35,470 bases of DNA from a virus. Each line of letters starts with the position of its first letter. Within the stretch, counting starts at the first letter, position 1. The translations under genes and the position numbers were made by a program. The notes beneath the pieces were generated by a model that did no database searches, had not been told where the DNA came from, and was given only the letters and a program-made list of their open reading frames with translations. Shown in pieces: positions 1 through 22,738 of this stretch. Where the stretch lies: positions 1 to 35,470 of the IMG/VR virus record IMGVR_UViG_3300013137_000060; one strand, 5' to 3'.

Positions 1-1
1 T

Positions 2-1024
2 ATTGGTGGGTTTGTTGATAAAATAGCGCAAGCAATCCCGCAAATAATCAAGGTTGGCGGCTCGATTCTGCAAGTGTTGGCAACGTCGATTATGCAAAAC
101 ATGCCGCTACTGGTAACGGCGGCATTTGATTTGATAACTCAATTTGGCATGTTTGTTTTGCAGAACATACCGATGCTGTTAGAAACCGCGCTTTCGATAT
201 TGACCACGCTCGCGCTAGGACTGGCGGAGCAAGCACCTGTTCTTATTCCGGCTATCGTTGAAGCAATATTAACAATGGTTGATACGCTTATCAATAACAT
301 TGACTTACTGGTTGACGCGGCGATTCAGCTTACAATGGGTATCGCTCAGGGGTTGATATCCGCGCTCCCGATTCTGGTACAGAAAATCCCGACAATGATA
401 ACCGCGCTTGTTAGCGCGATTCTGACGAATTTGCCGTTACTGATTCAAGCGGCGATCCAGATCGTGATTGCGCTTGTCAAGGGTTTAATTCAAGCAATCC
501 CGCAATTAGTCGCGGCGGTTCCGAAGATGATGGCGGGACTATTCAAGGCGTTTGGAACGTTTGGCAAGCAGATGCTCGATATCGGTAAGAATATAGTCAC
601 GGGAATCTGGCAAGGCATAAGCAATTCGTTTCAGTGGATTAAAAACAAAATTACTGAATGGGTTGGGAGTGTTGTCGGTTTTTTCAAAAAGATACTTGGG
701 ATTAAATCTCCGTCAACTGTTATGGAAAGCGAAGTCGGCGAAGATATGGGAAACGGTGCGGGCAACGGGTTCATCCGCGCATTTCGTGCAACGGTAGCGG
801 GAATCAATCCTGACATGCTCTTGTCCGGCTTGAACGGTGCAACAATATCTCCGAACATCAGCGCGAACCTTTCCAGCGTCGGAACGCTTGCGACGAGCGC
901 GGAGAGAACGGTTTTCGGGAAGAGCGTAACGGTCGGCGCGATCAACTTTAATCAGCCCGTAACTTCTCCGATTCAGACCGTAAACAGAATCAATCGTGAA
1001 CTTGCGGGGGTGCTGTATGCCTGA
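2..1024 (+). CDS. Phage tail tape measure protein, C-terminal part (5' end outside window)
   Basis: The reading frame is open to the left edge of the window, so only the last 340 or so residues are present. Most of the fragment is long hydrophobic alpha-helical repeats built on patterns such as LLxxAAxxIxxALxxGLIxAIPxL, about 25-35 residues per unit. The end carries the element FFKKILGIKSPS followed by a Gly-rich stretch, a characteristic tape-measure C-terminus (FFGI-SPS type). The protein sets tail length in siphoviruses and sits in the tail lumen until DNA ejection. It is followed directly by the distal tail gene, whose ATG overlaps its last codons, the standard TMP-Dit order. Family assignment is confident. 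The total length cannot be known from this window. Confidence 0.9.
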   Translation: MGGFVDKIAQAIPQIIKVGGSILQVLATSIMQNMPLLVTAAFDLITQFGMFVLQNIPMLLETALSILTTLALGLAEQAPVLIPAIVEAILTMVDTLINNIDLLVDAAIQLTMGIAQGLISALPILVQKIPTMITALVSAILTNLPLLIQAAIQIVIALVKGLIQAIPQLVAAVPKMMAGLFKAFGTFGKQMLDIGKNIVTGIWQGISNSFQWIKNKITEWVGSVVGFFKKILGIKSPSTVMESEVGEDMGNGAGNGFIRAFRATVAGINPDMLLSGLNGATISPNISANLSSVGTLATSAERTVFGKSVTVGAINFNQPVTSPIQTVNRINRELAGVLYA

Positions 1025-1868
1025 TAGAAAAGAAATTAAACTGCAAATCGGCACGAACATTATCCAGACCGGAACCGCGTACGATTGGGATTTGATCTCC
1101 ATTCAAGGCGACGAGTACATGGACGTTGACGTGTCCGTGGAAAACTTGGGGGCGCGGGACGGTGCGTATCTGAAAAGCATACGCTACCAACCGCGCTACA
1201 TCGATTTGATTCTACGCTCTGCTCTTTCAACGGGAGCGCAGATCGATGCAACCGAACTGCTGTTAAAATCGTATCTTGACAGCAAACTGTCAACAGAACT
1301 GACGATTTACAAAAACGGCGTAACGCGGGTTGGGTTTGGTTATATCGCGAAAGTTGAAAAGCCGCGAAACCTGAAATGGAATAGCGTACCGTATCTGACG
1401 GTAACGATTATCCTGCCGAATCCGTGGCTGTTTGGCGACGAAAACACGGACACGTTTAAAGCCGAAACCGGATTGATCTCGTTTCCGCTGTCCTTTATCG
1501 CTGACGTTGGCTTGACCGCTGGCGTTGCGGTATCCGGTAATACGATCACGTTCACTGTCGGCGGTCATGATCCGTGCGGCTTCGTCTTGACATTAACCGC
1601 GTCAGGTGCTACAATCAATCCGAAAATTGCGAACGCAGACGGGGACTATGTCCGCGTTCTGGAAACGCTCGCAGATCAAGATGTAGTTGTCGTATCCACT
1701 GTTGAGGGCGACAAGTACACGGAATTGAATGGAGTGGTTTGTAAGTATGACAGGTTATCGGACTTCTTTGGGCTGGCGGTTGGTAGCAATACTATTACTA
1801 TTTCCGCTGATTCTGGCGTTGACAATCTCGTCAAGTCCCTCGCTTGGCGGGAAAGGTACAGGGGATAA
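1017..1868 (+). CDS. Distal tail protein (Dit-like, siphovirus tail family), first copy
   Basis: This 283-residue protein resembles the Dit/phage tail protein family (Sipho_tail type). The N-terminal half has the beta-rich core with the DGAYLKSIRYQPRYIDL element. After the helix-strand segment ending NPWLFGDE, the C-terminal half looks like the family's second, galectin-like beta domain. In siphoviruses Dit forms the hexameric hub joining tail tube and tip. An in-frame GTG at 996 exists, but the ATG at 1017 with the GGGGG run just upstream is the better start and gives MPDRKE. It overlaps the tape measure stop by 8 nt. The gene ends one base before the GTG of the next gene, so the two are translationally coupled. 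A second, dissimilar Dit-like protein lies at 9642-10955. Confidence 0.8.
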   Translation: MPDRKEIKLQIGTNIIQTGTAYDWDLISIQGDEYMDVDVSVENLGARDGAYLKSIRYQPRYIDLILRSALSTGAQIDATELLLKSYLDSKLSTELTIYKNGVTRVGFGYIAKVEKPRNLKWNSVPYLTVTIILPNPWLFGDENTDTFKAETGLISFPLSFIADVGLTAGVAVSGNTITFTVGGHDPCGFVLTLTASGATINPKIANADGDYVRVLETLADQDVVVVSTVEGDKYTELNGVVCKYDRLSDFFGLAVGSNTITISADSGVDNLVKSLAWRERYRG

Positions 1869-1869
1869 G

Positions 1870-3831
1870 GTGGATATTTATCTGCTAGACTCAGATTTTG
1901 AAATCTACGGAAAACCGATTGATACGTTTTCCTCTCTTTCGTATACCGACAAGTGGAGCGAGGACGGGGATTTTAAACTCGTTCTGCCCGTCGAAAAGTA
2001 CAACGATGTAAAAGACGCAGCGTATGTCTATGTCAACGGGCGCACGTTTGAAATCTCAACGATCAAGACCAAAGACCTGAGCGCGAATGGTGAACTTTCG
2101 CTTGCAGGACATAACTTGAATGTCCTGCTTGACCGCGTTGTGATCGAAACACCAGAACGCTTGCAGGGGAATCTTGAAACTGAAATAAGGGCGTTGGTTA
2201 ATTCATATTGCGCGACTGGCTGGCAGGAGATTGACAAGTTCGCATTTGAAACCGTGAACGGATACGCTCGCGCAATCGACGCGAACGCGCCCAGGGGGTC
2301 GCTTGGTGAGTTCCTATACACGGAATTAAATAAGCGCGGATTCTCGTATTCTCTGACGTACAATATCTCGAACGATCAGATAGTGTTCGCTATCCTGCAT
2401 GGAACCGACAGGACGCAAGACCAGACCGCGAATGCATACGCTACGTTCTCCGCGTCTTTGGGTAACGTGGAAAACATGGAATACGAAAGGAATGAGAGCG
2501 AATACTATAATTGTGCGGTCGTTTGCGATGAGGACGAAACCGCGCCACAAACCGCAATCGTTGACTTGTCGAACGGTGAACCGAAACGAACGATTTACAT
2601 TAAAGGTTCAAATGCCTACGACGATACCGAAAACGACGCGCTGTATGTCATGGTTGGAACGTATTCTACTGGCGTTGGATATATCGCATCTTCTACGGAC
2701 GGGCAAACATGGACAAATAGAATGATAACGGGAATTGCACCGTTATGGTCAATCTCATATGAAAACGGAAAGTTTATAGCGGGAGGGGATACCGGAGATA
2801 TCGCCGTTTCAACGGACGGTATAAACTGGACAAAAAAAGAAACCGGAGCTGTTTCTTCCATAGAGGGTTTAACTTATTCTGACGGAATGTATATTATATT
2901 TTCGTCACTTGGTGGTATTGGATACGGATACGATACAGATAGTTGGAATACTGGGTTGACAACTGGGCACGGAAAGATGGTTAATGCGGCATATGTTATA
3001 AATAAGTTTGTAACATATTCGCAAGGCACGACTTCTCTAAACAAATGTACATCGTTCGACGGAGCGTCTTGGACGGTAACTCCGATAGCAATAAGCGGTT
3101 CTCCAACGCAATCTGCAATTTTACGCACTTGCTATGATCGTGGTATTGTTTGCGGTGCGGGACTATGGTATAACGGAACGACATACAAACCGCTTACAAT
3201 TACATCCACGGATTATGGCGCAACCGAAAGCGTAAATATTATCGAATCGCTTTCTGGTCATCGCTTCCTTGACATGGCGGCTGGACTTGGTGTATTCGTT
3301 GCGGTTGGACAAGCTGATATCATAGCGTGGTCAAGTGACGGCGTGGCGTGGACAGAAGTTACACCATCTGGAACATCAGCGGATTGGATTACCGTAACAT
3401 TCGACGGAACATTGTTCCACGCTTATAGTTATTCAACGAAACATCATGCGTATTCCGCAGACGGAAAAACATGGACGAAAACGACATTCACAACGTCCGC
3501 AACTGGAATCGACGCTGTTATTTACGGCGCACCACAACGTCAGTACTCGCTGTATTCAATCGGCTACAACGCCTTGCAAAAGTACAAGCCCGTTGAATTG
3601 ATCGACGGCGAGATTCTACCAACAGCACATCCGCAAATCGGCATTGACTGTTTTGTGGGCGATCTCGTGGACATTGCCGATCCGTCGCGCGGAATACTGG
3701 CATCTGAAATTCTCGCAGAAGCGCAGACGATATACGATGATAAGAACAACGGTATCATTATTCCAAAGTTTGGCGAGAACTATTTGACGCTAAAGAAATT
3801 CATGTTAAAGGAGATCAAACGCCTTGTTTAG
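1870..3831 (+). CDS. Gp37-like siphovirus tail protein with inserted Asp-box beta-propeller
   Basis: Residues 1-255 and the last 100 or so match the ReqiPepy6 Gp37-like tail-tip family: DIYLLDSDFEIYG at the start, LSLAGHNLNVLLDRVV in the middle, and a C-terminal segment like GEILPTAHPQIGIDCFVGD. Gp37-like proteins follow Dit in Firmicutes and actinobacterial phages and probably take the Tal/hub position. Between about residues 257 and 550 sits an insertion with repeated Asp-box-like motifs (STDGQTWT, STDGINWT, SFDGASWT, SSDGVAWT, SADGKTWT), expected to fold as a beta-propeller and perhaps bind surface glycans. Without it the protein would be about 360 residues, the usual family size. The GTG at 1870 is chosen because AGGGG lies 5 nt upstream; longer upstream starts would overlap Dit by up to 140 nt. 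The insert appears AT-richer than its flanks. Confidence 0.8.
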   Translation: MDIYLLDSDFEIYGKPIDTFSSLSYTDKWSEDGDFKLVLPVEKYNDVKDAAYVYVNGRTFEISTIKTKDLSANGELSLAGHNLNVLLDRVVIETPERLQGNLETEIRALVNSYCATGWQEIDKFAFETVNGYARAIDANAPRGSLGEFLYTELNKRGFSYSLTYNISNDQIVFAILHGTDRTQDQTANAYATFSASLGNVENMEYERNESEYYNCAVVCDEDETAPQTAIVDLSNGEPKRTIYIKGSNAYDDTENDALYVMVGTYSTGVGYIASSTDGQTWTNRMITGIAPLWSISYENGKFIAGGDTGDIAVSTDGINWTKKETGAVSSIEGLTYSDGMYIIFSSLGGIGYGYDTDSWNTGLTTGHGKMVNAAYVINKFVTYSQGTTSLNKCTSFDGASWTVTPIAISGSPTQSAILRTCYDRGIVCGAGLWYNGTTYKPLTITSTDYGATESVNIIESLSGHRFLDMAAGLGVFVAVGQADIIAWSSDGVAWTEVTPSGTSADWITVTFDGTLFHAYSYSTKHHAYSADGKTWTKTTFTTSATGIDAVIYGAPQRQYSLYSIGYNALQKYKPVELIDGEILPTAHPQIGIDCFVGDLVDIADPSRGILASEILAEAQTIYDDKNNGIIIPKFGENYLTLKKFMLKEIKRLV

Positions 3832-5221
3832 ATCAGGATTTTTCACGTCCGACAGTTGGACGATCAACGGTGACGGGTTTGCGATTGGGAACAAAGCGGA
3901 GGGATCGGACTTTTTCGCGAAGATCGTTTCCGTCATGGTTCCGGATGGCGTTCCTTACCTTCCGTCAAGCAACCTGTTAATAAGCGCGACCACGGGAATG
4001 ATTCTCGGTGTGGGCGCGGGATTCGCTTTCAAGAACGGCTATCTCGCATGGGAAACGACCGACACAACGATCACGTGCACATCAAGCGAGAGCGAACAGA
4101 CGCTTTATATTTCCGCGAGATTAGATACGGCAAGCGGAGAGTTTACGGGCGGTCAAGTTGACGCGTACACGACCTTTGACGGCGACACGGATATCTGCTT
4201 CGCAATCGTCGTGATTCCTGCAAGCGCGGTCACGATCACAAGCGCGATGATAACGGACGTGCGCGGGAACGCGACTTACTGCGGGTACATCACCGATCAG
4301 CGCGAGTATTTAGAGGATTTGATCGAAGAAATTCAAGATCAGCTTTCAACCGTCATCGGCGGCGGTGTCCCCGACCATGCGAGCACACACGCAACAGGTG
4401 AAGACGACGAGTTGCTTCCGGCTGACATTGGCGCACTTCCCTACGACGCGGTTTCGTCAAATCTGATCATCAATGGGAATTTTTCAGTCAATCAGCGCGT
4501 CGTATCCAACACGGTAACGCTTTCTGCTGGCGCATACGGTCACGACCGCTGGAAAGCGGGCGCGAGCGGTTGCACATACACGTTTGCAACGTCAGAAAAT
4601 GTCACGACACTTACGATCTCGGCGGGTTCGTTGATTCAAGTTGTTGAAGGTCTCAATCTGCAATCCGGAATGGTTTGTCTTTCTTGGACAGGCACCGCGC
4701 AAGGAAAGGTCGGAGATGGAAGTTATTCTGCGTCTGGCGTGACTGGAACCGCAACGGGCGGGACGAATCTCAATATTGAGTTCAACACAGGAACGCTGTC
4801 AAAAGTCCAACTTAACTACGGCTCCGTCGCGCTCCCGTTTGTGCCTATGATTTTCGCGGACGAGTTAATGTTGTGTCAGAGATACTATGAAAAAACATAT
4901 AGTGTCAACGTTGCTCCCGGCACAGATACTACGGATGGGCTTTTTATGACCACTGTATTATCAACGGGAGTTACAAATGGATCACGTTGGCTTTTGGGTC
5001 ATCATCCTAAATTCTTGGTGCCAAAAAGGGTTGCTCCGACTGTTGCTCTGTATATTGTTACTGGAACTGCCAATCAAATAAACGTTTCCGCAACTCCAAG
5101 AGCTTCTATCGCAACGCTTATATCTACAACTGGGTTTACGATCTCAAATAACACTGGGGGAACTGTCACTCCAACGGCCGGAGAGGCCTATGGTCATTGG
5201 ACGGCAGATGCGGAACTTTAA
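3824..5221 (+). CDS. Tail fibre / receptor-binding protein
   Basis: This 465-residue protein starts at TTG 3824. AAAGGAG at 3807-3813 supports that start, which overlaps the previous gene by 8 nt. The first 150 residues are a beta-rich baseplate-attachment-like region, followed by a short helical stretch (QREYLEDLIEEIQDQLS) that could trimerise. A linker (DHASTHATGEDD) follows, then a C-terminal module beginning NLIINGNFSVNQR and containing YGHDRWKAG and the FADELMLCQRYYEKTY element. The latter recurs in distal domains of phage tail fibres and tailspikes that bind carbohydrates. Position after the tail-hub gene and before lysis genes fits receptor binding. The last 100 residues are the likely specificity tip. 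Role is inferred from domain pattern and position. Confidence 0.7.
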   Translation: MFRSGFFTSDSWTINGDGFAIGNKAEGSDFFAKIVSVMVPDGVPYLPSSNLLISATTGMILGVGAGFAFKNGYLAWETTDTTITCTSSESEQTLYISARLDTASGEFTGGQVDAYTTFDGDTDICFAIVVIPASAVTITSAMITDVRGNATYCGYITDQREYLEDLIEEIQDQLSTVIGGGVPDHASTHATGEDDELLPADIGALPYDAVSSNLIINGNFSVNQRVVSNTVTLSAGAYGHDRWKAGASGCTYTFATSENVTTLTISAGSLIQVVEGLNLQSGMVCLSWTGTAQGKVGDGSYSASGVTGTATGGTNLNIEFNTGTLSKVQLNYGSVALPFVPMIFADELMLCQRYYEKTYSVNVAPGTDTTDGLFMTTVLSTGVTNGSRWLLGHHPKFLVPKRVAPTVALYIVTGTANQINVSATPRASIATLISTTGFTISNNTGGTVTPTAGEAYGHWTADAEL

Positions 5222-5230
5222 GGAGGGAAT

Positions 5231-5584
5231 ATGGCAAAACATTATATTATTACCGACGAATTAGGGCGCGTTTTACGCGGTTTTTCGGACGATTTTGAGC
5301 AACCGACCGAAAGTGCAATCTGCATCACCGAAGATGGCGGGCGGCACTTTGAGTTGAACGGCGTTATCAACCCGCCGATGACGGATGAGCTAGGTGTGCC
5401 GCTTTACAAGTTTGATGGCGATCAAGTCATCGAGCGGACGCAGGAAGAATTGGATGCGGACAAGCCTGTTGTCGTTCCGGTGCCGACGGTTGAAGAACGG
5501 CTCGCACAGGTCGAAGAACTTGTTAATGGCACACCGTCATATGGTGAACTGCTCGAAGCGGTGAACATTCTGTTGGGTGAATGA
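5231..5584 (+). CDS. Small tail-region protein of unknown function, possibly fibre-associated
   Basis: This 117-residue acidic protein follows the fibre gene by 9 nt with a strong AGGAGGG ribosome binding site at 5221-5227. The N-terminus (KHYIITDELGRVLRGFSDDFEQP) reads as a small beta domain, and the C-terminus has a predicted helix (TVEERLAQVEELVNG) typical of short proteins next to tail fibres in Firmicutes phages. Such genes often encode fibre accessory or assembly proteins, but there is no diagnostic motif here. Stop and next start are essentially contiguous, so it belongs to the late tail operon. Confidence 0.6.
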   Translation: MAKHYIITDELGRVLRGFSDDFEQPTESAICITEDGGRHFELNGVINPPMTDELGVPLYKFDGDQVIERTQEELDADKPVVVPVPTVEERLAQVEELVNGTPSYGELLEAVNILLGE

Positions 5585-5585
5585 A

Positions 5586-5762
5586 ATGAAAGATATCAGA
5601 GAGATGGCAAAAGAAAGACGGGCTGAATTTGACGCGCTGAAAATCAAAGCGGCTGATTCTGACGCGCTGGTTGCAGAACTGGAAGAAGTGCGCGACAAAC
5701 TTCCGAAAGAGGCAAAAGACCTGTTGGACAAACACGCCAAGAATGCGGGTAAAAACAAATGA
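5586..5762 (+). CDS. Short charged helical protein
   Basis: This 58-residue protein is rich in Lys, Glu, Asp and Ala with a heptad-like pattern (ALKIKAADSDALVAELEEV), so probably one long helix or coiled coil. The start could be GTG 5577 (adds three residues and overlaps the preceding stop) or ATG 5586; neither has a strong ribosome binding site, so translational coupling with the upstream gene is likely. Its stop overlaps the ATG of the next small gene in an ATGA arrangement. Function unknown. Its place between fibre and lysis genes suggests a minor tail or lysis accessory. Confidence 0.5.
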   Translation: MKDIREMAKERRAEFDALKIKAADSDALVAELEEVRDKLPKEAKDLLDKHAKNAGKNK

Positions 5763-5848
5763 TTAGCGCATGGTGGATTATTCCTATCGCTATGACTTCG
5801 GCACTTGCCGGATTCTTTGCTTGCGCGTTAATGAAAAAGTCAGAGTAA
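5759..5848 (+). CDS. 29-residue single-span membrane peptide
   Basis: The short frame begins with the ATG that overlaps the previous stop (ATGA) and encodes MISAWWIIPIAMTSALAG followed by FFACALMKKSE. It is one hydrophobic helix of about 22 residues with a positively charged C-terminal end. Very small membrane peptides in this position are common in Firmicutes phage late operons, but it has no recognisable ribosome binding site other than coupling. Support is stop-start overlap, clean hydrophobic profile and filling of the gap before the next gene. Confidence 0.5.
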   Translation: MISAWWIIPIAMTSALAGFFACALMKKSE

Positions 5849-5860
5849 CTTGGAGGAATA

Positions 5861-6868
5861 ATGGATAAAACCGTTTGGCTCGATGAAGCAATTAAAATGC
5901 ACTATGACGATGGAATGCAATATTCAGAGATTGTGAAACGGTTTCGGCAACACTTCCCCGCAGAAATGCACGAATCCACGATAAACAGGTGCATACGAGA
6001 TGCTGTAAGACGGTCGGAACGTGGAAAACAGATGAAGTCGGTTTCTGTTGTCCGTCCAACAGTAGAGCCAAAACCAAAGAAAGAGACCGTGTTTCAAAAT
6101 CTCGAACCAGATATTATCCCCGCAAAATGGGGCGGTCGCAGGACGATTCGCTTTGCGTTGATGGGAGATACACAGATCAATAGCAAGTACACACAGTTGA
6201 CGCACCTGCACGACTTCTACGATGTTTGCTCTCGTTACGGAATAGATACGGTCTATCACACGGGTGACATTGACGAGGGCGAACAGATGCGAACCGGACA
6301 CCAATATGAGTGTTATACACAGGGCGCAGATGACCACGTTGATGAAATAATCCGAGTATACCCGAAGCGCACGGGAATCAAGACGCTATTTATCACCGGA
6401 AATCACGATGCATCGATGATAAAGCATTGTGGGTTTGATATTGGAAGGGCAATCACCGAGAAGCGTAGTGACATGACATATCTAGGACGAGACTGCTCCG
6501 TTATTCAACTTACGCCAAACTGTTCGCTAGAACTAAGGCATCCGTGGGACGGAACAGCATACGCAATCTCCTACAAGATGCAAAAGATGATTGAGGCTAT
6601 GCAAGGCGGCGATAAACCGAATATCCTTGCCGTCGGACACTATCACAAGATCGAGTATCTTTCTTACAGAAACGTACATGCATTTCAGACAGGAACGTTT
6701 CAGGCGCAGACTCCGTGGATGCGGGGCAAGGGTATAGCGGCAATGATGGGCGGTTGGATTGTCGAGGTTGACGTTGACGGGGACGGAAGTATAAGAAGCG
6801 TCAAGCAGGAGCTTATTCCGTACTACAAGGCTATCAAAGATGACTACAAGAACTTTTCCGCGAGGTGA
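5861..6868 (+). CDS. Calcineurin-like metallophosphoesterase with N-terminal HTH-like segment
   Basis: The metallophosphoesterase motifs occur in order: GDTQ (residues 102-105, in place of the usual D-x-H), GDIDEG (135-140), GNHD (180-183), and GHYHK (259-263). These are the metal ligands and catalytic His of the calcineurin/Mre11-like fold, so phosphodiester hydrolysis is likely. Residues 1-55 (YSEIVKRFRQHFP...INRCIRDAV) look like a helix-turn-helix, suggesting DNA binding. The gene has its own ribosome binding site (TTGGAGG, 5851-5857) and lies in the late arm between tail and lysis genes. The substrate is unknown. It is not next to the Rad50-like ATPase, so it should not be read as that protein's Mre11 partner. 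Confidence 0.8.
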   Translation: MDKTVWLDEAIKMHYDDGMQYSEIVKRFRQHFPAEMHESTINRCIRDAVRRSERGKQMKSVSVVRPTVEPKPKKETVFQNLEPDIIPAKWGGRRTIRFALMGDTQINSKYTQLTHLHDFYDVCSRYGIDTVYHTGDIDEGEQMRTGHQYECYTQGADDHVDEIIRVYPKRTGIKTLFITGNHDASMIKHCGFDIGRAITEKRSDMTYLGRDCSVIQLTPNCSLELRHPWDGTAYAISYKMQKMIEAMQGGDKPNILAVGHYHKIEYLSYRNVHAFQTGTFQAQTPWMRGKGIAAMMGGWIVEVDVDGDGSIRSVKQELIPYYKAIKDDYKNFSAR

Positions 6869-6887
6869 TTGACTTGGGAGAATGAAT

Positions 6888-7607
6888 ATGGAGATATATA
6901 AAATAACCAACGATATAAACGGAAAAATCTACATAGGTCAAACGATACAGTCAACAAAGATGCGGTGGCTGGGTCATCTGCATTCGAGCAAGGATAAGCT
7001 TTCCGCCATAGATTCTGCCATAAAAAAATACGGTCGCGAAAACTTTTCAGTTCAAACGATTGATTATGGTAACTCAATCGACGAGCTAAACGAAAAGGAA
7101 ATATTCTGGATAGCGTTTTTGCGCAGCACCAGCCCGAACGGCTATAACATTTCTTCCGGAGGATTTAACAGGTTTACGAGCGATGAGTCCAAAAGGAAGT
7201 CAAGTGAAACGCACAAGGCGAGGCAAGCGATTCATGGAAACCCTAGGTCGAAGCGCGTTTACCAATACACGCTAGACGGTATATTTGTTGCCGAATACAA
7301 ATCGATGCGTGAGGCGGCTAGGCTGTGCGGTATGCACGGAAACGCAATAGCCTCGGTTTGCAGAGGAGAGCATTACTACTGCGGCGATTACAGGTGGACG
7401 ACGCAAAAAGGCGTTCTTTCCGACGCGCCTACGAAAAGCTTCAGATTGATCGAGCACAACGGCGTGTTGAAAACGATGAAGCAGTGGTCGAATGAGATGG
7501 GCATACCCTACAGCACGTTTCAGATGCGCATAAAACACGGATTGACTGGAGAACGACTGTTCGCGCCCATCGATAGGTCGAAATCACCGACGAAGAGGAG
7601 GAATTAG
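6888..7607 (+). CDS. GIY-YIG homing endonuclease with NUMOD-type DNA-binding repeats
   Basis: The protein opens with the GIY-YIG nuclease signature: MEIYKI, then KIYIG (residues 13-17), catalytic-type Arg in TKMRWLGH, and a Glu in DELNEKEIFW. Residues from about 120 on carry NUMOD1-like DNA-binding units (VYQYTLDGIFVAEYKSMREAARLCG and a second weaker one with MKQWSNEMGIP). This is the layout of free-standing phage homing endonucleases, which cut a cognate site lacking the gene and spread by repair. ATG 6888 is preferred over ATG 6882 because GGGAG at 6876-6880 sits 7 nt upstream of it but only 1 nt upstream of the other. The gene is inserted between the phosphoesterase and the DUF4406 gene. 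Confidence 0.88.
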   Translation: MEIYKITNDINGKIYIGQTIQSTKMRWLGHLHSSKDKLSAIDSAIKKYGRENFSVQTIDYGNSIDELNEKEIFWIAFLRSTSPNGYNISSGGFNRFTSDESKRKSSETHKARQAIHGNPRSKRVYQYTLDGIFVAEYKSMREAARLCGMHGNAIASVCRGEHYYCGDYRWTTQKGVLSDAPTKSFRLIEHNGVLKTMKQWSNEMGIPYSTFQMRIKHGLTGERLFAPIDRSKSPTKRRN

Positions 7608-7609
7608 AT

Positions 7610-7963
7610 TTGCTAATTTATACGGCGCATTGCTTCGGCGGCAAGAAATCAAACATCCGTAAAGCGGCGAAGATCACTCGTGCGCTTCAACTCGCTGACC
7701 AAGAAAATACGTACATCTGTCCCTTGCTTGCATTCTCCCACTTGAAGTATGGAGAACTTGGATATGAACGCGAAATGCAACTGTGCATGGATTTATTGTC
7801 TGAGTGCATGAGCATGGTCGTAGCATCGAAGGTCAGCAAAGGTGTTGGCATGGAGATTGAGTATTGTGAACTCTGGAATATGCCGATTCGGTATCTAAAC
7901 GTTGAGAAACCTATCGGAGGATTCATTGCGTTAAAGGAGTGGTTTGAATGGCTGTCAAGATAG
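7610..7963 (+). CDS. DUF4406-type protein (nucleoside deoxyribosyltransferase-like fold)
   Basis: This 117-residue protein begins LIYTAHCFGGKKSN, then a long helix, ICPLLAFSHLKYGE and a C-terminal strand-helix region. The order resembles DUF4406 proteins, which share the Rossmann-like fold of nucleoside 2-deoxyribosyltransferases and occur in many phages. Catalytic activity is not established for the family. The TTG start at 7610 is decided by an AGAGGAGGA ribosome binding site about 7 nt upstream. The 3' end overlaps the endolysin start by 16 nt. Confidence 0.6.
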   Translation: MLIYTAHCFGGKKSNIRKAAKITRALQLADQENTYICPLLAFSHLKYGELGYEREMQLCMDLLSECMSMVVASKVSKGVGMEIEYCELWNMPIRYLNVEKPIGGFIALKEWFEWLSR

Positions 7964-8763
7964 TGCATGCCGTTGGTGATGAAAACGGCAAAGCAAGGGG
8001 CGGAAAAGCAGGAGATCAAACTGGAAAAGAAATCCTAGTCACCAACTGGTACAAACGTACTGGCGGTTGGGATGTGATGCTCGAATGCACGGATAGAGCA
8101 CTTGCTAAAAGAGCGGCAGAATTTGCGATTCAGATAGCCAATGACGATTCGTTCGGATATGACCAAGATCAAAGAACCACTGGTTTAAAAGCAATTATTG
8201 CGGCTGGAAGTATAGGCGATGCTGTTGATTCTGAAATGGACTGCTCTGCGCTTGTATTCTCCGCTTATATCCTTGCTGGTCTTGAAATCGGAGTTGGCTA
8301 CACTGGCAATCTTGAATCGAGATTTCTCAATACTGGATTATTCGTTGCGCACCGTGAACCACAATATCTGTCAAGCGGTGACTACGCAAGCATCGGTAGC
8401 ATTTATCTGACCTCTGGAAAGCATACGGCAATCGTCGTTTCTGATGGCAAAAAGTCTGGTGCGTATGACGAATCCGATACTTCCGTTGTTGATGAAACGG
8501 ACGGTTCTGGCGAAGCAGATGAAATCGAACCACCGTATGTTCAGATTGTCGGAAAAGTCAACGTTAGAAGTCAAGCGGGAACTTACACAGACGAAGCAAC
8601 TGGCAAAGAAATGTTCTATCCAAGAATCTACAGAGCGCAGAATGAACGGCTTCCGTTTGAAGAATTTGATGATGACACTGGATGGTACGGAGTTATGTCT
8701 CCCGCTGGTGCAGGATTTGTGTCGAACGCAATTCCGCGTTACGCTAAGCTCGTCAAGGAGTAG
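7948..8763 (+). CDS. Endolysin: NlpC/P60-type peptidoglycan peptidase with C-terminal SH3-like domain
   Basis: The N-terminus has the GDENGKARGGKAGDQTGKE element followed by NWYKRTGGWDVML, characteristic of a group of Firmicutes phage endolysins with a Cys-His peptidase domain. The probable nucleophile is Cys99 in DCSALV and the general base His159 in GKHTAIV. After an acidic linker (about residues 170-193), the segment VQIVGKVNVRSQAG onward resembles a bacterial SH3 domain that would bind cell wall. The protein should cleave peptide bonds in peptidoglycan at the end of the lytic cycle. AAAGGAG lies 8 nt upstream of the ATG. The next gene encodes a membrane protein, completing a lysis-type pair. 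Confidence 0.8.
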   Translation: MAVKIVHAVGDENGKARGGKAGDQTGKEILVTNWYKRTGGWDVMLECTDRALAKRAAEFAIQIANDDSFGYDQDQRTTGLKAIIAAGSIGDAVDSEMDCSALVFSAYILAGLEIGVGYTGNLESRFLNTGLFVAHREPQYLSSGDYASIGSIYLTSGKHTAIVVSDGKKSGAYDESDTSVVDETDGSGEADEIEPPYVQIVGKVNVRSQAGTYTDEATGKEMFYPRIYRAQNERLPFEEFDDDTGWYGVMSPAGAGFVSNAIPRYAKLVKE

Positions 8764-8766
8764 AGT

Positions 8767-9183
8767 ATGTGCAAGCCTAAAACAGAACTTACGGATGAGC
8801 AGAAGGAAGAACGGAAGGTTGCTAGACGTGAAAAGCGTTCGGCATTTCGTTCTCGCATGGTTGACGAGTTCAAGAAGATCGTCATTATTGCGCTTTTCCC
8901 GATTTTTGCAGGAACGATTATCTGGTGCATGGTACTGTATACACTGAAAGTAACCCCTACTGTATCCCCGACGATACCGATTGCGGCTATGGGATTTTTA
9001 AGCGGGGCATATTTCGTGTATTGCTCCTCTGCGGCGAAAGAGAAAGACAGTCTCAACAAAAATGGACTCGTAAAGGGAAAAGACGGAGTGATCCAGAAGG
9101 CGGCGGAAACAGTGTCAACGATTATAAAAACCGTGACAGGCAACTCGACTACGACCACCGATGACTCTGATGCAAAAGGCTAA
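8767..9183 (+). CDS. Two-span membrane protein, possible holin-like or lysis accessory
   Basis: This 138-residue protein has a very basic N-terminus (residues 10-30), then two hydrophobic segments: about 38-60 (IVIIALFPIFAGTIIWCMVLY) and 67-85 (VSPTIPIAAMGFLSGAYFVY). A polar tail follows, ending in a Thr-rich stretch. Topology and position directly after the endolysin fit a holin or a holin-antiholin partner. No specific family was recognised. It is the last gene before a strong promoter, so it probably closes the first late block. Confidence 0.55.
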   Translation: MCKPKTELTDEQKEERKVARREKRSAFRSRMVDEFKKIVIIALFPIFAGTIIWCMVLYTLKVTPTVSPTIPIAAMGFLSGAYFVYCSSAAKEKDSLNKNGLVKGKDGVIQKAAETVSTIIKTVTGNSTTTTDDSDAKG

Positions 9184-9212
9184 TTGACCGCTTGCTCAAA
9201 ATGATATATAAT
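9184..9212 (+). promoter_or_regulatory. Consensus sigma-A promoter P4 inside the late arm
   Basis: A -35 box TTGACC (9184-9189) and a -10 box TATAAT (9207-9212) are separated by exactly 17 bp; transcription would start near 9219. It begins immediately after the stop codon of the membrane protein and lies 31 nt upstream of the holin ATG, with GGAAGGAG at 9228-9235 as that gene's ribosome binding site. Late phage genes are usually read from one upstream promoter, so this site suggests the downstream block (holin, second Dit, Tal) is separately expressed. Confidence 0.75.
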
Positions 9213-9243
9213 ATACACGAACAATGAGGAAGGAGTGATTGAT

Positions 9244-9639
9244 ATGAAAGATGTTTTGATCCAATATGGAGTGGATATTCTCGTAGCTATCGTCGTTGCT
9301 CTTATCGGCGTAGTCGGAGCATGGCTTGCGAAGGTTCTCGCGAAGAAGATGGAGTTGTCCAATATTGCGGCGGCGCAGAAAGAAGTTACGACAGCCGCGC
9401 AGGAAACAGTTCTCGAACTCAAGCAAACCGTCGTTGACGATCTTAAAGCGGCGGCTGAGGACAACAAGCTTACAAAAGAGGAAATCGCAGACTTGAGTGT
9501 GAAGCTGCTCACTATGACGATTAAGAAACTGTCAGCTTCCACTCTTAAACTTCTCGCGAGTGCAAGCATCGATATCCCCGCATTGATTAAGAGCGCGGGC
9601 GAAGCGTTTATTGCCAAAAAGTACAAAGACGGAGAATAA
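9244..9639 (+). CDS. Holin, LLH-family-like
   Basis: This 131-residue protein has one strong N-terminal membrane helix (residues 8-30, YGVDILVAIVVALIGVVGAWL). A long amphipathic helical region rich in Ala, Lys and Glu follows, with a C-terminal segment KSAGEAFIAKKYKDGE. This matches the plan of LLH-type phage holins in Firmicutes. It would form membrane lesions that release the endolysin. ATG 9244 is chosen over GTG 9235 because GGAAGGAG ends 8 nt upstream of the ATG and overlaps the GTG. It is the first gene behind promoter P4. Confidence 0.65.
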   Translation: MKDVLIQYGVDILVAIVVALIGVVGAWLAKVLAKKMELSNIAAAQKEVTTAAQETVLELKQTVVDDLKAAAEDNKLTKEEIADLSVKLLTMTIKKLSASTLKLLASASIDIPALIKSAGEAFIAKKYKDGE

Positions 9640-9641
9640 TT

Positions 9642-10955
9642 GTGGCTAACTACAATAGCGGGTTCGTATACAACAAACTTCCGAGCGATGGCGGATTCAT
9701 TTATAACGGCGGCGTTTACGTCGTTACTTTCCGCATATCGGACGAGTTCTGGTCGAGCGACGCAGTGACGCGTCTTTCTTGCATTTCCGTTGTGTACGAA
9801 TCCGCTAGAGCCACCGACGCACGACTGCTTACAACTAGGTATCTCTTGACGGACGAAGTTGAAGCTTCTGACGCAACCGCTACTGCTCGTGCAATGTTCA
9901 GACTGACGGAATCGCTTCGCATCACTGATGCTGTTTCTGCTATGATTGCATCGTTGCTTGTTACGGACAGATTCAAGATGCTCGATAGCGTTTCTCGGCT
10001 TGCTACGCTTATCGCTAAGACGGAAACCGCCGCATTCAGGGATATTTCTTCCGTTCGCGCACTTATCCGCACAATCGATTCTTTCGGAATGTCTGATCTT
10101 GCTGAATTTATTCGGTCTATTATTTCGATTCGAGATACGGCGTTCGCTTCCGATACTGACCCTAAAACCGCGATTGCTGACTTTATTATCGGTGATCCTA
10201 CGCAAGTCGGAGAAGGTGACGATCTTGACGCGGCGTTCGACTGGATTCTTCCTTTCGGTCTTATGGTTGACTGGAAGAACTCTGTGTTCCCAAGAGCACC
10301 CGAAGCAGAGTCCGACGAGATTCAGATTGCGGGACTTGACGGAGAAACGTTAGAGCATACGCGTTATCGCAATCGTCAGTTCAACGTGGTCGCGTGGTCA
10401 GAAGATGATCTGTCTCAAGCCGAGAAGGACGCGCTGATTCGTCAGATTACCGAAATTCTTGACGCGACTAAGAACCAGACCAAGACGCTCACGTTTGCCA
10501 GAACAGGCGTTTCGTTTGACGTTAAGTATGATGGCGAGCTTAATATCGAAGAAGCACCTAGCTTTATTCGTGCGACTATTCCGCTCAACGCTTCTGCTTA
10601 TGGCTATAACCGATTCGAGAAGCAAGTTGACGGTAGCGGCTTAGTTCAAAACTCAGGAATCGCTCGCGTTGGTGTTATCAATAGAATCGAAGGTGAGTGC
10701 ATCAATCCGTCCTTCGCGATGGGCGATGTTGATATCTCTTGGACTGGTACTATTCCGGCAGGAAGCTATCTATTTATCGACCACGGCAAAGAAGTCTGCT
10801 ATCTGCAAGACTCGTTCGGGAACAAGACCAATGCGCGTCAGTATTTGAACGGCGAGTTCGTCAAGATTCCTGTTGGCGGTACGATTATTATCACGGCGAA
10901 TGATTGCACAGAAGCGCACTTGTCAACAACTTGGTACGATAAGTTCCTTTGGTAA
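9642..10955 (+). CDS. Second Dit-like distal tail protein with N-terminal repeat region
   Basis: Residues 1-175 contain about eight degenerate 16-20-residue repeats based on a pattern like hxhTDxhxxxDAV (FRISDEFWSSDAV, YLLTDEVEASDAT, RLTESLRITDAV, LLVTDRFKMLDSV). The C-terminal 250 residues look like a Dit/tail protein core: FGLMVDWKNSVFP, a GLDGETLEHTRYRNRQFNV strand pair, a helix with ALIRQITEILDA, and a beta-sandwich ending LSTTWYDKFLW. The start GTG 9642 follows GGAG by 7 nt and lies 2 nt after the holin stop. It shows no obvious similarity to the Dit at 1017-1868. Codon choice here looks richer in T-ending codons (GCT, CGT, TCT) than in the first tail block. Confidence 0.65.
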   Translation: MANYNSGFVYNKLPSDGGFIYNGGVYVVTFRISDEFWSSDAVTRLSCISVVYESARATDARLLTTRYLLTDEVEASDATATARAMFRLTESLRITDAVSAMIASLLVTDRFKMLDSVSRLATLIAKTETAAFRDISSVRALIRTIDSFGMSDLAEFIRSIISIRDTAFASDTDPKTAIADFIIGDPTQVGEGDDLDAAFDWILPFGLMVDWKNSVFPRAPEAESDEIQIAGLDGETLEHTRYRNRQFNVVAWSEDDLSQAEKDALIRQITEILDATKNQTKTLTFARTGVSFDVKYDGELNIEEAPSFIRATIPLNASAYGYNRFEKQVDGSGLVQNSGIARVGVINRIEGECINPSFAMGDVDISWTGTIPAGSYLFIDHGKEVCYLQDSFGNKTNARQYLNGEFVKIPVGGTIIITANDCTEAHLSTTWYDKFLW

Positions 10956-10985
10956 ACGCTTTAGCACTTTAGCGAGGTAAAGTAA

Positions 10986-13900
10986 ATGTCTAATCCGAGC
11001 AGGACACAAATTGAAGTTTACTCTAAAGCGGGCGATTTGATCGCCTCTTTTAGCAACCCGATTGCAACGCCGGATAATCCTTCTGCCGCGTTGACCAGCG
11101 ATGAACGCAGAGAGGTTATGATTGACCCTACTGTTAAGCTCGTGCAGAATGGGGAAAGCTCGTTTACCTTCAAGATGCTCGTTTCTGCGGAGAAATTTCA
11201 CCTGATTAAAACGATAGGTAATCGCTTTCACGTAAACGGTCGCGTTTATACTGCGCTGACCGACGATGCTATCGTTTATGGATATGAAGGTGAAGATTCT
11301 CGCGTAGCCACTGTAACGCTCGTAGAGGAACAATACACGCTACAGAAGAAGTTTGTCCAAGCGTATAACGTAATGCCGTACAGCAAGGCTCTGGCGACCG
11401 CTGGCGTGGCTTGCGTAGCTTATGACAGAACAGAAAAGGTTGCAGAGATTGCTACGTTCGTTATTTCGTCTGCTGATGCTAATTTCCAGAAAGCATTGCT
11501 GTGGGATATTACGGACACAATCTATATTCTCGAACCGTCTGACACGTGGGAAGAGCCGCCGACCTATATCAACCCCGTTTCAATCACCAAGACGGAAGAA
11601 TCGATTACGATCACGTTCTATAATCTTGGTGGTGCTATTCCACTTGGCGCAACGGCTCTGTTCGGTGCCGGAATTGAATCTATCGATGACCACACGGTTA
11701 CGATTCTTCCGAAAGCGAATAAGAAATATAAGTTGACAATCGACGGCGTTCAGTATGAAGATTCGGTTGTTCTGGACGAACGTGGTATTCTGATGCCTCG
11801 TGGTTCTGGCGGGTATGCGCTGTGGGCTATGATTCGGCACACTGGTTGGCAACTCGGTACGTGCGATATTATTCACGACCAGTTTAATACGACGCAGGTT
11901 GATGCTGTTGCTCAATCAGAAGTTCGCGACTTCACTGGAATTTACGGCACGTATAAGGATTCTAGCAAGTCTTGGGTGTTCGACGTTGCTCAAAGCACTG
12001 ATTCGGCATTCAGACGCGCTCTTAATTGGAAGGTTGGCGATACTCTATATATTGCCGATATTTCCGATGTTGATGACGTTCCCGAATGGACTGACGCTCC
12101 CGATTCTGTGCATATCACGTATTTCAGTGCAACGGATAGCAGGATCACGATTAAGACTGATGGTTCCGGAACGATAGTGAATGATTGCGTTGTTGCGTTC
12201 AGTAATGCTGGTGCGGCTCTTGAAGCGAAGTTCGTAGTTCCGTCTAGCGATGCAGGATTTTCTCTTGCAAACACTTGGGAAGATGGCTATAGCCTATCTG
12301 TTTACGACGCGGTTGGCTGGGCTGACGCGCCTGTTTCCGCTCGTATTCTTTCCGTTATCACGAATGAAGCAGGTGATCTCGAAATCACTATCCTGAATCT
12401 TGGCGGACTGATCTCTGCTGGTGCGACTGTTCGCTTTATCAGCGGAAGCGAAGTTGGCGTGTTCAACTGCGAGACTGATGCAAAAGATATTTTCGAGAAT
12501 ATTAAACTTGTTCAAGAACTTTGGGGCGGTGTTCTTGTTTTCGACAGTTTCCACAAAGTTATCCACTATCGTGATGAAGAAAAAGAAGGAACGGATTTCA
12601 ACACTTGGAACGGCTATACGATTAAGCGCGGGAAGAATCTAACTGCTTCTCCTAGCGTTTCTTGGAATGCCGATATTATCACTCGGCTTTATCCGCTTGG
12701 TTCTGATAAGCTGAATATCGCTCTAGTCAATGATGGCAAGCGTTATGTTGATGACTTCTCGTTCACAGATGAAGTCCTAGAGGGATATGTCGAGCAACCG
12801 AACATCTACGACACTCTTGATGATGGAGGAATGCTACAGCTTCTCTATTGGGCGCAGAGAGAAGTTGCCAAAGTCTGTAAGCCGCGTATGACCGTTAAGT
12901 ACGAAAACAAGGTTGTTGATCGCAGACAGATTGGCGGATATGAGTTTGATGTGTTCGATCTCAACTCAATCGTTAAGGCATATTATATCGATTCTGAGAG
13001 CGGAGAAGAAACGAGCGAACTGCTCCGTATCGTAAATTGGGAATATAACGTTTGGAATCCGCTGACGAATACGACTATTGAAGTAGGCGATATCAAGGCG
13101 AACGTCCGCGATATCTTCAAGCTGATCTACAAAAAGACCGAGGAAATGCCCGCGTTCGATGCAAAAGGCAGAATCAGCGCGGACGATATTTCCGTTGGTT
13201 CTTCTTCGTCTAGTTCCTCGCGTCGTGGCGGTGGTGGCAGCGGAGGTGGCGGTGGAACGCTTGCTGATGAACTTGAAAAACAGATTCAAAGTAATGCGTA
13301 CTTCTATCAGAAATTCGACCAACAATCCGCCGTTATAGGCGCTGTTGCACAATTCGCTACGCAGACGGATGAATACTCCAGAAGCGGTATCGCGGCACTT
13401 GACATCAAGGTTGATGAAACTTCTAGCGCGTTACAAGCATCTGTTCGGCAAACCTATGAGACATTAAGCGGAGAAATAACGCAAACCGACGCTACGCTTC
13501 GTTTGTGGGCAGAAGATTCATTTGCAAGCGCGGAACTAACGACCAGATACAATAACCTCGTTTCTGGCATGGGAAACTATACTTCAATAAAGCAGTTCGC
13601 AGACGCAACCTACGCCAAGACCGAAATCGAAGCGTGGGTGAATAGCACTAGAAGCTATCTGACTGTATCTGGCGGAGCCATTACAATGAGTTCGGGGGGT
13701 CAGTTCGTTGGCGTAGGACTCGGCGCAATCTATCTAAGCGGTAGTTACGTCGATCTCGACGGAGATACGGTTGCGGTTGGAAGCATTGGTTCTGTTATTA
13801 AAATGTGGGGAAGCGAAGTAGAATTTCACTCTATGGACGTGCTTGAGAGCGTAAGCGTCAATACGGTTGGTACTTGGGTAGCTACCCTTCCTAGCGGATC

Positions 13901-14225
13901 ATCTTCTGTTGACGTAGTCCGGTCATCTTCGCTCGAATACTCAGCTTCGAGCGGAACAAACGCAAGGAGCGGTTATATCATAACAAACTGGTCAACGGTT
14001 AACCCTATATCAAGCATCACGTTGACAAAGCAGGTTGTTTCGGGTGTAAGCGTTGTTACTGGCATTTCGGTAGACAGGTTGAATGCCGCGTCTATTTCAA
14101 CGAGCTTCGTTCGTTTCCCAACGGGGATACTTAATCAGACTAGCACACTTGGAAGGACGCAAGTTTCGGAAGTTCAAAGCGTATCAAGGACTACCGCGAG
14201 CAAAACTTTTGTAACGAGAAAGTAA
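10986..14225 (+). CDS. Tal-like tail-associated protein with three internal repeat domains and Gly/Ser linker
   Basis: This 1079-residue protein follows the second Dit, as Tal proteins do. Residues 1-135 and 490-720 resemble the two parts of a phage tail endopeptidase/hub domain (TFKMLVSAEKFHLIKTIGNR; later WGGVLVFDSFHKVIHYRDE and a NWEYNVWNPLTNTTIEVGD segment). Between them are three related units of 75-80 residues (about 157-228, 328-405, 411-488), each with xFVISSADAxF, a Trp-containing turn and a LGGxIxxGATxxF end. Residues 738-758 form a natural Ser-run/Gly-rich linker. The C-terminal 300 residues are helical, then beta-rich (SSGGQFVGVGLGAIYLSG), probably a trimeric tip. AGCGAGGTAAAG supplies the ribosome binding site. 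Peptidase activity is not claimed, as no clear catalytic motif was found. Confidence 0.7.
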   Translation: MSNPSRTQIEVYSKAGDLIASFSNPIATPDNPSAALTSDERREVMIDPTVKLVQNGESSFTFKMLVSAEKFHLIKTIGNRFHVNGRVYTALTDDAIVYGYEGEDSRVATVTLVEEQYTLQKKFVQAYNVMPYSKALATAGVACVAYDRTEKVAEIATFVISSADANFQKALLWDITDTIYILEPSDTWEEPPTYINPVSITKTEESITITFYNLGGAIPLGATALFGAGIESIDDHTVTILPKANKKYKLTIDGVQYEDSVVLDERGILMPRGSGGYALWAMIRHTGWQLGTCDIIHDQFNTTQVDAVAQSEVRDFTGIYGTYKDSSKSWVFDVAQSTDSAFRRALNWKVGDTLYIADISDVDDVPEWTDAPDSVHITYFSATDSRITIKTDGSGTIVNDCVVAFSNAGAALEAKFVVPSSDAGFSLANTWEDGYSLSVYDAVGWADAPVSARILSVITNEAGDLEITILNLGGLISAGATVRFISGSEVGVFNCETDAKDIFENIKLVQELWGGVLVFDSFHKVIHYRDEEKEGTDFNTWNGYTIKRGKNLTASPSVSWNADIITRLYPLGSDKLNIALVNDGKRYVDDFSFTDEVLEGYVEQPNIYDTLDDGGMLQLLYWAQREVAKVCKPRMTVKYENKVVDRRQIGGYEFDVFDLNSIVKAYYIDSESGEETSELLRIVNWEYNVWNPLTNTTIEVGDIKANVRDIFKLIYKKTEEMPAFDAKGRISADDISVGSSSSSSSRRGGGGSGGGGGTLADELEKQIQSNAYFYQKFDQQSAVIGAVAQFATQTDEYSRSGIAALDIKVDETSSALQASVRQTYETLSGEITQTDATLRLWAEDSFASAELTTRYNNLVSGMGNYTSIKQFADATYAKTEIEAWVNSTRSYLTVSGGAITMSSGGQFVGVGLGAIYLSGSYVDLDGDTVAVGSIGSVIKMWGSEVEFHSMDVLESVSVNTVGTWVATLPSGSSSVDVVRSSSLEYSASSGTNARSGYIITNWSTVNPISSITLTKQVVSGVSVVTGISVDRLNAASISTSFVRFPTGILNQTSTLGRTQVSEVQSVSRTTASKTFVTRK

Positions 14226-14233
14226 CGTCAAAA

Positions 14234-14265
14234 GAAGCTGTGATTTTACTCACAGCCTTCTTTTT
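14234..14265. terminator. Bidirectional intrinsic terminator between convergent arms
   Basis: A hairpin pairs GAAGCTGTGA (14234-14243) with TCACAGCCTTC (14250-14260, one unpaired C) around a loop of six bases, followed by TTTTTCTT. On the opposite strand the same stem is followed by TTCTTTTG. It sits 8 nt after the stop of the rightward Tal gene and overlaps the stop of the leftward gene at 14246, so it can end transcription of both the late and early arms. Confidence 0.8.
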
Positions 14266-14662
14266 CTTGCGAATCTATGTATTTGAATATCAGCGACATA
14301 TCTGACGCTCCTAGCCAAGTTCTCGGATCACTCGCTCTGAAATATGCACCAGACGATAAGTCTTCTCTTTCCAGTTTTAAGCACGGGATATCTTGATCTA
14401 CGCTTGAATCCATTAACTTTCTAACAGATTCTATAAAGTGCTCTTTATCCGCATCGCTCTTGTAGTCGAACTTCTGCGGATCATCTTCGTGCGGAAAACA
14501 GCAAATGTCTGAAAACTTTCTTAGTTGCGCCTCGACATATTCGTATATCGGCTTCGTCTGTTCGATGAAATCGAATATCGACTTGTCTACGCCATCCCTG
14601 ACAAACACATGGCTTGACAGCTTCGATAGAACCATCCTACTAGGAAACTCTCCGTACTTCAC
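14246..14662 (-). CDS. Conserved-looking phage protein of unknown function, last gene of early arm
   Basis: This is a 138-residue acidic, mostly helical protein (VLSKLSSHVFVRDGVDKSIFDFIEQ at the start). No known domain was recognised. It starts at GTG 14662 with GGAGGGG 5 nt upstream, inside the 3' end of the SSB gene, and its stop lies in the convergent terminator. Co-transcription with SSB, the MBL protein and RecT suggests a role in DNA metabolism, but this is only by neighbourhood. Confidence 0.65.
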   Translation of the reverse strand: MKYGEFPSRMVLSKLSSHVFVRDGVDKSIFDFIEQTKPIYEYVEAQLRKFSDICCFPHEDDPQKFDYKSDADKEHFIESVRKLMDSSVDQDIPCLKLEREDLSSGAYFRASDPRTWLGASDMSLIFKYIDSQEKEGCE

Positions 14663-21392: not shown

Positions 21393-21669
21393 CTGGTTTT
21401 TGCTTTAGCTCTGCGACCCAAAGGCTTTTATTTTCTATCAATCGCATTACTGTTCTGAATGGCATGGAGATAATAAAGCCGATGTGATAAGGCTTGTACC
21501 CGAACCAAATCCACTTCTCTTTTGCAAGCTGTTCTGCCGAAACGATTAGAATATCGCTACGCCTATACTTTTGCTTGCTCCGAAGATAAGTGTGATATTT
21601 CACGATCTTTTCGCACTTGTCGCAGTAAATTGGATCAACCGTCTTGCATGTCGTACACGGCTTATTCAT
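21376..21669 (-). CDS. Small protein with N-terminal zinc-ribbon-like Cys pairs
   Basis: This 97-residue protein begins MNKPCTTCKTVDPIYCDKCEK, two CxxC pairs expected to bind zinc, followed by a region with aromatic residues (WIWFGYKPYHIGFII). Its final codons read VDQQQ-stop and coincide with the -35 box and spacer of promoter P1. It overlaps the upstream glycosyltransferase gene by 8 nt. Function unknown. Confidence 0.65.
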   Translation of the reverse strand: MNKPCTTCKTVDPIYCDKCEKIVKYHTYLRSKQKYRRSDILIVSAEQLAKEKWIWFGYKPYHIGFIISMPFRTVMRLIENKSLWVAELKQKPVDQQQ

Positions 21670-22738
21670 TCTTCTTCTCGCTCCACTTCTTAATAATCCG
21701 CATTGCGTTTTCGGGATTGTATGCGGTTTCTCCGATGATGTTGCCTAGCTTGTTGAATTTCTGATCTGCCGCAACCAACAAAGCATGAGCCGCAGAACCC
21801 ATTTCATCCTGATCGCACAGACAACCGTACAGATAATCGAAGTCAGGATATTCGGGCAACAGATTGATCGCCATGACGTACAGAGCAATGAACTCGTTGT
21901 AGTCCTCTTTCCCGATGAACCGACCAACCATCAAATTCCGAAGCATCTGCGCTGAAAGCTCGCGGTCGTTATCAATCTCGTTCAGCAGTTTTCGTTTCGC
22001 ATCCGTTCTGACCCGATCTGCGGCTTCAAATTGACCGTCTAGGGATAACGCGCATGCGTACTGCTCAATGCACCGAAGCGACTCTGGATGTTGCTCTACG
22101 GCTCTCTCTGCAAGCGTGACGCGCATCTTGGACTTTCCCGTGCGTTCCAGCGCTTCTTTTGTGTATCCGTAATGGTCGATGTAGATCGGTTCGTCTGTGG
22201 TTAATACTCTAAGTGGAATTGCTCCGTCAAGCGTATCGTTCCAAAGCTGTTCGTGCAAATCTCCCGTGAAGAAATATTTTCGATCTTCTTCGACTCGGAT
22301 GATGCGCGGATTGACGTTTTTCGCTACGGTCTTGATCGAGCCATCGTCGTTCCTGTTTCGGATTGTCACGGCAAGAGCGTCAACGTCCCGAAGATTTATG
22401 CTTCGCTTGAAATAGTCCATTTTGTAAAGCAAACCATCAATCGATTCCTCTGCAATAATCTCGTCAACGTCCGTGAAAATCAGCCAATCTGTATCAAGCG
22501 GAATCAGGTTCAGCACAAGGTTCCTAGCTTCTGCAAACGAGAAACTATCCGATGGCATATCCGACTCAAAGACTTCTGCTCCGAGTGCCGCCGCAACTGC
22601 TACGCTCTTATCGTCGCTTCCAGTGTCGAGAACGATGATCTTGTTGGCAATCTTACGCACATTCTCAATCCATCTCGGAAGCGTCGATTCCTCATTCTTG
22701 CAGATCGCAAGCGCGACGATGTTAAGATTCTTGTTCAA
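21662..22738 (-). CDS. Family 2 (GT-A) glycosyltransferase, paralogue 1
   Basis: The 358-residue protein starts with the GT2 pattern VALAICKNEESTLPRWIENV and IIVLDTGSDDKS, then FTDVDE with the metal-binding DxD (residues 90-92), and FTGDLHEQLW further on. The C-terminal 150 residues are helical and TPR-like, as in SunS-type transferases. It would transfer a sugar from a nucleotide donor; the acceptor (protein, cell surface or phage DNA) cannot be told from sequence. It overlaps its paralogue upstream by 17 nt, so the two are probably made together. Confidence 0.82.
   Translation of the reverse strand: MNKNLNIVALAICKNEESTLPRWIENVRKIANKIIVLDTGSDDKSVAVAAALGAEVFESDMPSDSFSFAEARNLVLNLIPLDTDWLIFTDVDEIIAEESIDGLLYKMDYFKRSINLRDVDALAVTIRNRNDDGSIKTVAKNVNPRIIRVEEDRKYFFTGDLHEQLWNDTLDGAIPLRVLTTDEPIYIDHYGYTKEALERTGKSKMRVTLAERAVEQHPESLRCIEQYACALSLDGQFEAADRVRTDAKRKLLNEIDNDRELSAQMLRNLMVGRFIGKEDYNEFIALYVMAINLLPEYPDFDYLYGCLCDQDEMGSAAHALLVAADQKFNKLGNIIGETAYNPENAMRIIKKWSEKKNE

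Follow-up and report, generated by a model that had tools for sequence, protein, structure and literature searches.

Two pairs of tail-tip genes, each a Dit followed by a hub, occur in the virus record IMG/VR IMGVR_UViG_3300013137_000060, one directly behind the tape measure (TMP) gene and the other behind the lysis genes. Which pair is native to the phage, and how did the two come to lie together? The sequence, a virus fragment of metagenome type, is a single contig, and the window analysed here is its whole stretch of 35470 bases.

Gene layout and the two Dit-hub pairs

The window begins inside the TMP gene, and genes to the left of TMP lie outside it. Forward-strand genes extend to position 14225. 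From 14246 the reverse strand carries replication and regulatory genes, including those for RecT, an integrase, a DnaB helicase and a KilA-C antirepressor. A search among phages with the DNA of window positions 1-14400 gave no near match. The features discussed are listed below with their profile matches (E values) and, where relevant, their counterparts in the nearest relative, IMGVR_UViG_3300048836_000098 (hereafter R).

2-1024, +, C-terminal part of TMP, cut by the window edge (phrog_5493, 2.9e-33; phrog_58, 9.1e-26)
1017-1868, +, Dit1 (phrog_33, 2.6e-17; PF22768 SPP1_Dit, 2.4e-11)
1870-3831, +, hub 1, Gp37 type, in the Tal position (PF14594, 8.3e-29)
3824-5221, +, tail fibre of a type unlike the lineage's (phrog_4492, 2.2e-34)
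5231-5584 and 5577-5762, +, two small genes behind the fibre, no homologue in R
5840-5861, no strand, edge of homology with R (exchange point or false join)
5861-6868, +, metallophosphoesterase-like gene (PF12850, 3.4e-4, below cut-off); same place in R, only the N-terminal part R-like
7610-7963, +, nucleoside 2-deoxyribosyltransferase-like gene (phrog_355, 3.8e-8); 65% identity to R
7948-8763, +, endolysin-like protein (PF25309, 2.6e-48); 56% identity to R
8767-9183, +, small membrane protein; homologue in R, 54% identity
9184-9212, +, promoter TTGACC-17-TATAAT (11/12); counterpart in R
9241-9639, +, probable holin (weak match to phrog_13712, 2e-4)
9642-10955, +, Dit2 (phrog_33, 2.5e-12, residues 218-437), with a MANYNSG start and a long N-terminal extension
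10986-14225, +, hub 2, Prophage_tail type, in the Tal position (PF06605, 7e-12; phrog_3475, 2.5e-21)
14237-14256, +, terminator-like hairpin after hub 2

The TMP-Dit-hub-fibre order that the first-pass annotation had read at 1-5221 is borne out by profile matches to all four genes. Hub 1, directly behind Dit1, matches PF14594 with 101.1 bits against a curated cut-off of 26.2. Its Gp37 domain lies in two halves (1876-2556 and 3550-3777) with a large insert between them. The insert (2556-3550) contains repeated 'S.DG..W' motifs, perhaps forming a beta-propeller, and one part of it resembles a protein of Stenotrophomonas jumbo phages.

The second pair, proposed in the same annotation as Dit-like and Tal-like, also stands: a profile search of 9642-14225 returned a Dit and a hub, and not unrelated decoration or fibre proteins. 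Besides its phrog_33 match, the predicted model of Dit2, of moderate confidence at residues 200-437 and not confidently modelled at 1-179, has SPP1 Dit (2x8k) as its best match in the PDB (E 5.6e-9, probability 1.00), followed by other Dit or baseplate chains. Hub 2 begins 30 bases after Dit2 ends and matches PF06605 with 46.0 bits against a curated cut-off of 31.3. Its model has a mean pLDDT of 37.6, too poor for a fold search, and a sequence-profile search of the PDB gave no match; its identity therefore rests on the profile matches and on its place after a Dit. No cell-wall hydrolase family was found in either hub at E<=0.001, and the term 'hub' is therefore used here in preference to 'lysin'. 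Three repeats of about 75 residues occur at two places in hub 2 (residues 155-232, 325-412 and 412-488); they are also present in R, and in the profile alignments the remaining relatives lack these regions. A search with hub 2 among plasmids found no near match.

Both pairs are present and intact, and they are mutually unrelated in sequence, as had been claimed: pairwise comparison gave E 0.25 for the two Dits and E 0.19 for the two hubs.

The nearest relative and the edge of homology

R (73.7 kb) was the only close relative recovered in the Dit2 scan. From the phosphoesterase gene onwards it is collinear with the window, gene by gene (DnaB 90% and integrase 82% identity). It encodes one Dit, one Prophage_tail hub and no Gp37 hub, and this sole pair occupies the position of the window's second pair, behind an endolysin, a membrane protein and a holin. 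Dit2 is 76% identical to the Dit of R, and hub 2 is 72% identical to its hub across 856 residues. Dit2-hub 2 is thus orthologous to the only pair in R. A tandem of two related glycosyltransferase genes (21662-23831) is likewise present in both phages.

Left of the phosphoesterase gene the correspondence ends. Nucleotide similarity to R starts at position 5852 (74.4% over 125 nt, E 8.6e-17), nine bases upstream of the phosphoesterase start codon, and comparison to the left of this base gave nothing significant. In place of TMP-Dit1-hub 1-fibre, R has a TMP of another class, a 209-residue protein and another fibre. The TMPs of R and of the Ruminiclostridium hungatei DSM 14427 prophage (L007) belong to phrog_4211, in contrast to the phrog_5493/phrog_58 class of the window, and BLASTP found no match to the window TMP in R. 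None of the left-block proteins matches R, except for a 33-residue motif that is the only stretch common to the two fibres. A GIY-YIG homing-endonuclease-like gene (6882-7607), absent from R, lies 1 kb from the edge of homology. The phosphoesterase gene was considered as a marker of a donor tail and rejected, its relatives of 57-73% identity lying in other gene neighbourhoods, away from tail tips.

Codon style follows the same division, and the difference in codon endings noted in the first-pass annotation was confirmed by a codon comparison. T-ending codons account for 0.35 of Dit2 and hub 2, compared with 0.24-0.28 of the left block and 0.21 of the early genes of the window; in R the fraction is 0.33 in the Dit and hub and 0.31 in the fibre genes. 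T-rich endings are characteristic of late genes in this lineage. Codon usage of hub 1 and the fibre is close to that of the window's early genes (JSD 22-23 x 10^-3).

Since the only pair of R shares its position, promoter and codon style, Dit2-hub 2 is the native pair, and it is the left block, in the usual place for tip genes, that looks foreign. The earlier suggestion of a module imported from another phage is therefore plausible as regards an import, but it was attached to the wrong block: orthology, position and codon style rule out Dit2-hub 2 as the imported one.

Promoter and transcription unit

The sequence at 9184-9212 ranks best of 12 promoter candidates in 10 kb, about as many candidates as shuffled sequences yield (12.8). 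R, however, has a counterpart (TTGACT-17-TATAAT) at the same place, before its own holin. The gene behind the promoter had been called a holin; the match to phrog_13712 agrees with this, although it is weak, and the product is not homologous to the holin of R. With a promoter before the holin in both phages and a hairpin behind hub 2, holin, Dit2 and hub 2 appear to be transcribed together in the window and in R. An alternative tip expressed at another time had also been proposed. The promoter, however, stands before the single tip of R as well; it belongs to the lineage as such and gives no sign of timed alternative expression.

This bears on the idea of a working two-tip phage, in which both pairs would be made, yielding either two sorts of particle or one composite tip, so that the phage could use more receptors or switch between them. 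Both pairs are intact, and tip 2 has its own promoter and terminator with no sign of decay. On the other hand, the promoter of tip 2 also drives the only tip of R, the window lacks the TMP class, the 209-residue protein and the lineage fibre that all accompany Dit2 in relatives, and no other record examined has both pairs. We regard this explanation as improbable. A slightly lower probability still is given to its more specific form, in which an imported Gp37-type tip in the main operon and a native Prophage_tail-type tip under the lysis-linked promoter would yield two types of particle that differ in their receptors. Both tips may be in use, the intact genes being the one piece of positive evidence for this.

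Comparison of the window with R gave a dN/dS of about 0.11 for Dit2 and for codons 1-760 of hub 2, similar to the 0.08-0.19 of other genes. Dit2 and hub 2 show no relaxed selection, as would be expected if an exchange were recent; with dS at least 1.5 for the tip genes, near saturation, these values mostly reflect time before any exchange.

The separate tip unit with its own promoter had further been proposed to be a satellite-like block that remodels a helper phage. That oddity is the one feature in favour of the proposal. R, however, carries its own terminase, portal, head protease and major head protein genes in addition to tail genes, the tip unit lies inside a collinear phage genome, and the window itself has integrase, DnaB, RecT and antirepressor genes. 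Given the full structural gene set of R, we rejected this reading and consider it barely credible.

The wider lineage and the rarity of the combination

Scans with Dit2 alignments yielded 25 related records, one of them the R. hungatei prophage. A Dit was found in all 25 and a single Prophage_tail hub in 24, while a Gp37 hub above cut-off was found in none of the 25. In Gram-positive siphophages the tip genes usually follow TMP and precede the lysis cassette (PMC6115969). This lineage departs from that order, its tip genes often being behind the lysis genes: in R and many of the 25 records the sole Dit-hub pair comes after the fibre genes. In L007, L010, L015, L032 and L041, TMP is separated from the fibre and Dit genes by holin and lysin genes, and in L033 and L037 by at least a holin. 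No lysis genes were seen in this interval in L014, L038, L039 and L044. A Dit behind the lysis genes is thus common in the lineage but not universal.

Other variations were seen at these loci. Five relatives have tandem Dits before one hub (L014, at 9623-11410, and L030, L031, L041 and L042). In some relatives fibre and Dit are separated by a tyrosine recombinase gene (L035, 8478-9491; L036, 210-1223; L041, 8795-9694), a possible fibre switch. In L037 (10001-11064) the Dit is split across two overlapping frames, by a frameshift or a sequencing error.

The reverse comparison started from Gp37 hubs in 391 sampled genomes of Clostridia, the class of R. hungatei, of which 53 had matches; 64 loci were taken. 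A Dit was present within 20 kb of 59 of these loci, two Dits at none, and a Prophage_tail hub above cut-off within 20 kb at none; some of the contigs were short, making this a lower bound on sensitivity. On the counts of 0/25 and 0/64, the combination of a Gp37 hub with a Prophage_tail hub is rare. No paper on two Dit-hub pairs in one phage was found in the open-licence literature.

Such rarity could also arise if the record were an assembly chimera, in which the left arm of one phage was joined to the R-like right arm of another from the same sample and no phage has both pairs. The source is a metagenome-type fragment, and the combination occurs in no other record examined. In simulated viromes, chimeras make up to about 5% of contigs of at least 10 kb (PMC5610896); this combination was picked for its oddness, and the share of chimeras among such cases would be above the simulated rate. 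Against a false join, the transition falls at a gene boundary, with intact genes running in the same direction on both sides, and codon usage of hub 1 and the fibre is near that of the window's early genes, as for phages of one host. Near-equal codon usage would, however, also fit a false join between two phages of one host. Overall, we judge a chimera unlikely, while giving it more weight than any other competing explanation.

A proposed exchange of the left tail arm

The explanation we favour, with a probability of roughly 0.52, is that a foreign left tail arm took the place of the original one, with the crossover at a gene boundary, and that the native tip stayed behind, beyond the lysis genes. 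The starting point would be a temperate siphophage lineage with its Dit-hub pair behind the lysis cassette and fibres, away from the TMP gene. A left structural arm comprising at least TMP, Dit1, the Gp37 hub, the fibre and the two small genes would then have been replaced by that of a different siphophage. The exchange would end on its right side near base 5850, and the native holin-Dit2-hub 2 unit would have been retained, being beyond this point. Particles would probably use tip 1, whose TMP came along, leaving tip 2 as a stranded or spare part. We infer that the exchange took place in nature.

Several observations argue for an exchanged arm. R has its single pair where the window has its second, and its gene order follows that of the window from the phosphoesterase gene on, with homology beginning nine bases before a start codon. 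Lysis genes separate TMP from Dit in R, L007, L010, L015, L032 and L041. The left block departs from the lineage in TMP class, in fibre and in codon style, and Dit2 and hub 2 have the codon style of R's late genes. Finally, Acutalibacter phage Fontainebleau and Butyrivibrio phage Ceridwen both carry TMP-Dit-Gp37-fibre as a standard module. Counted against an exchange, scans with TMP, hub 1 and Dit2 found no second contig with both pairs, and those with TMP and hub 1 gave distant or no matches, with no donor phage among them.

Where the tip genes stand behind the lysis genes, a lineage can exchange its tail arm yet keep the old tip, and phages with two tips could arise in this way. Provided that the join is real, whether one phage carries and uses two unrelated tips becomes directly testable.

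Comparison with known systems

The R. hungatei DSM 14427 prophage (L007/L029) and L010, L015, L032 and L041 resemble the window in having a MANYNSG-type Dit followed by a Prophage_tail hub. Unlike the window they have one pair only, and their Dits are 22-31% identical to the window's. Fontainebleau and Ceridwen show the order and families of the left block (TMP, Dit, Gp37 hub, fibre), but their lysis genes come next, as usual, and no second Dit or hub is annotated. The lactococcal 936 phage Phi4.2 has dual receptor-binding proteins (PMC6315561), and is similar in that one phage carries an extra tip component. It differs in that the second receptor-binding protein is borne on one Dit-Tal baseplate, whereas the window encodes a second Dit-hub pair.
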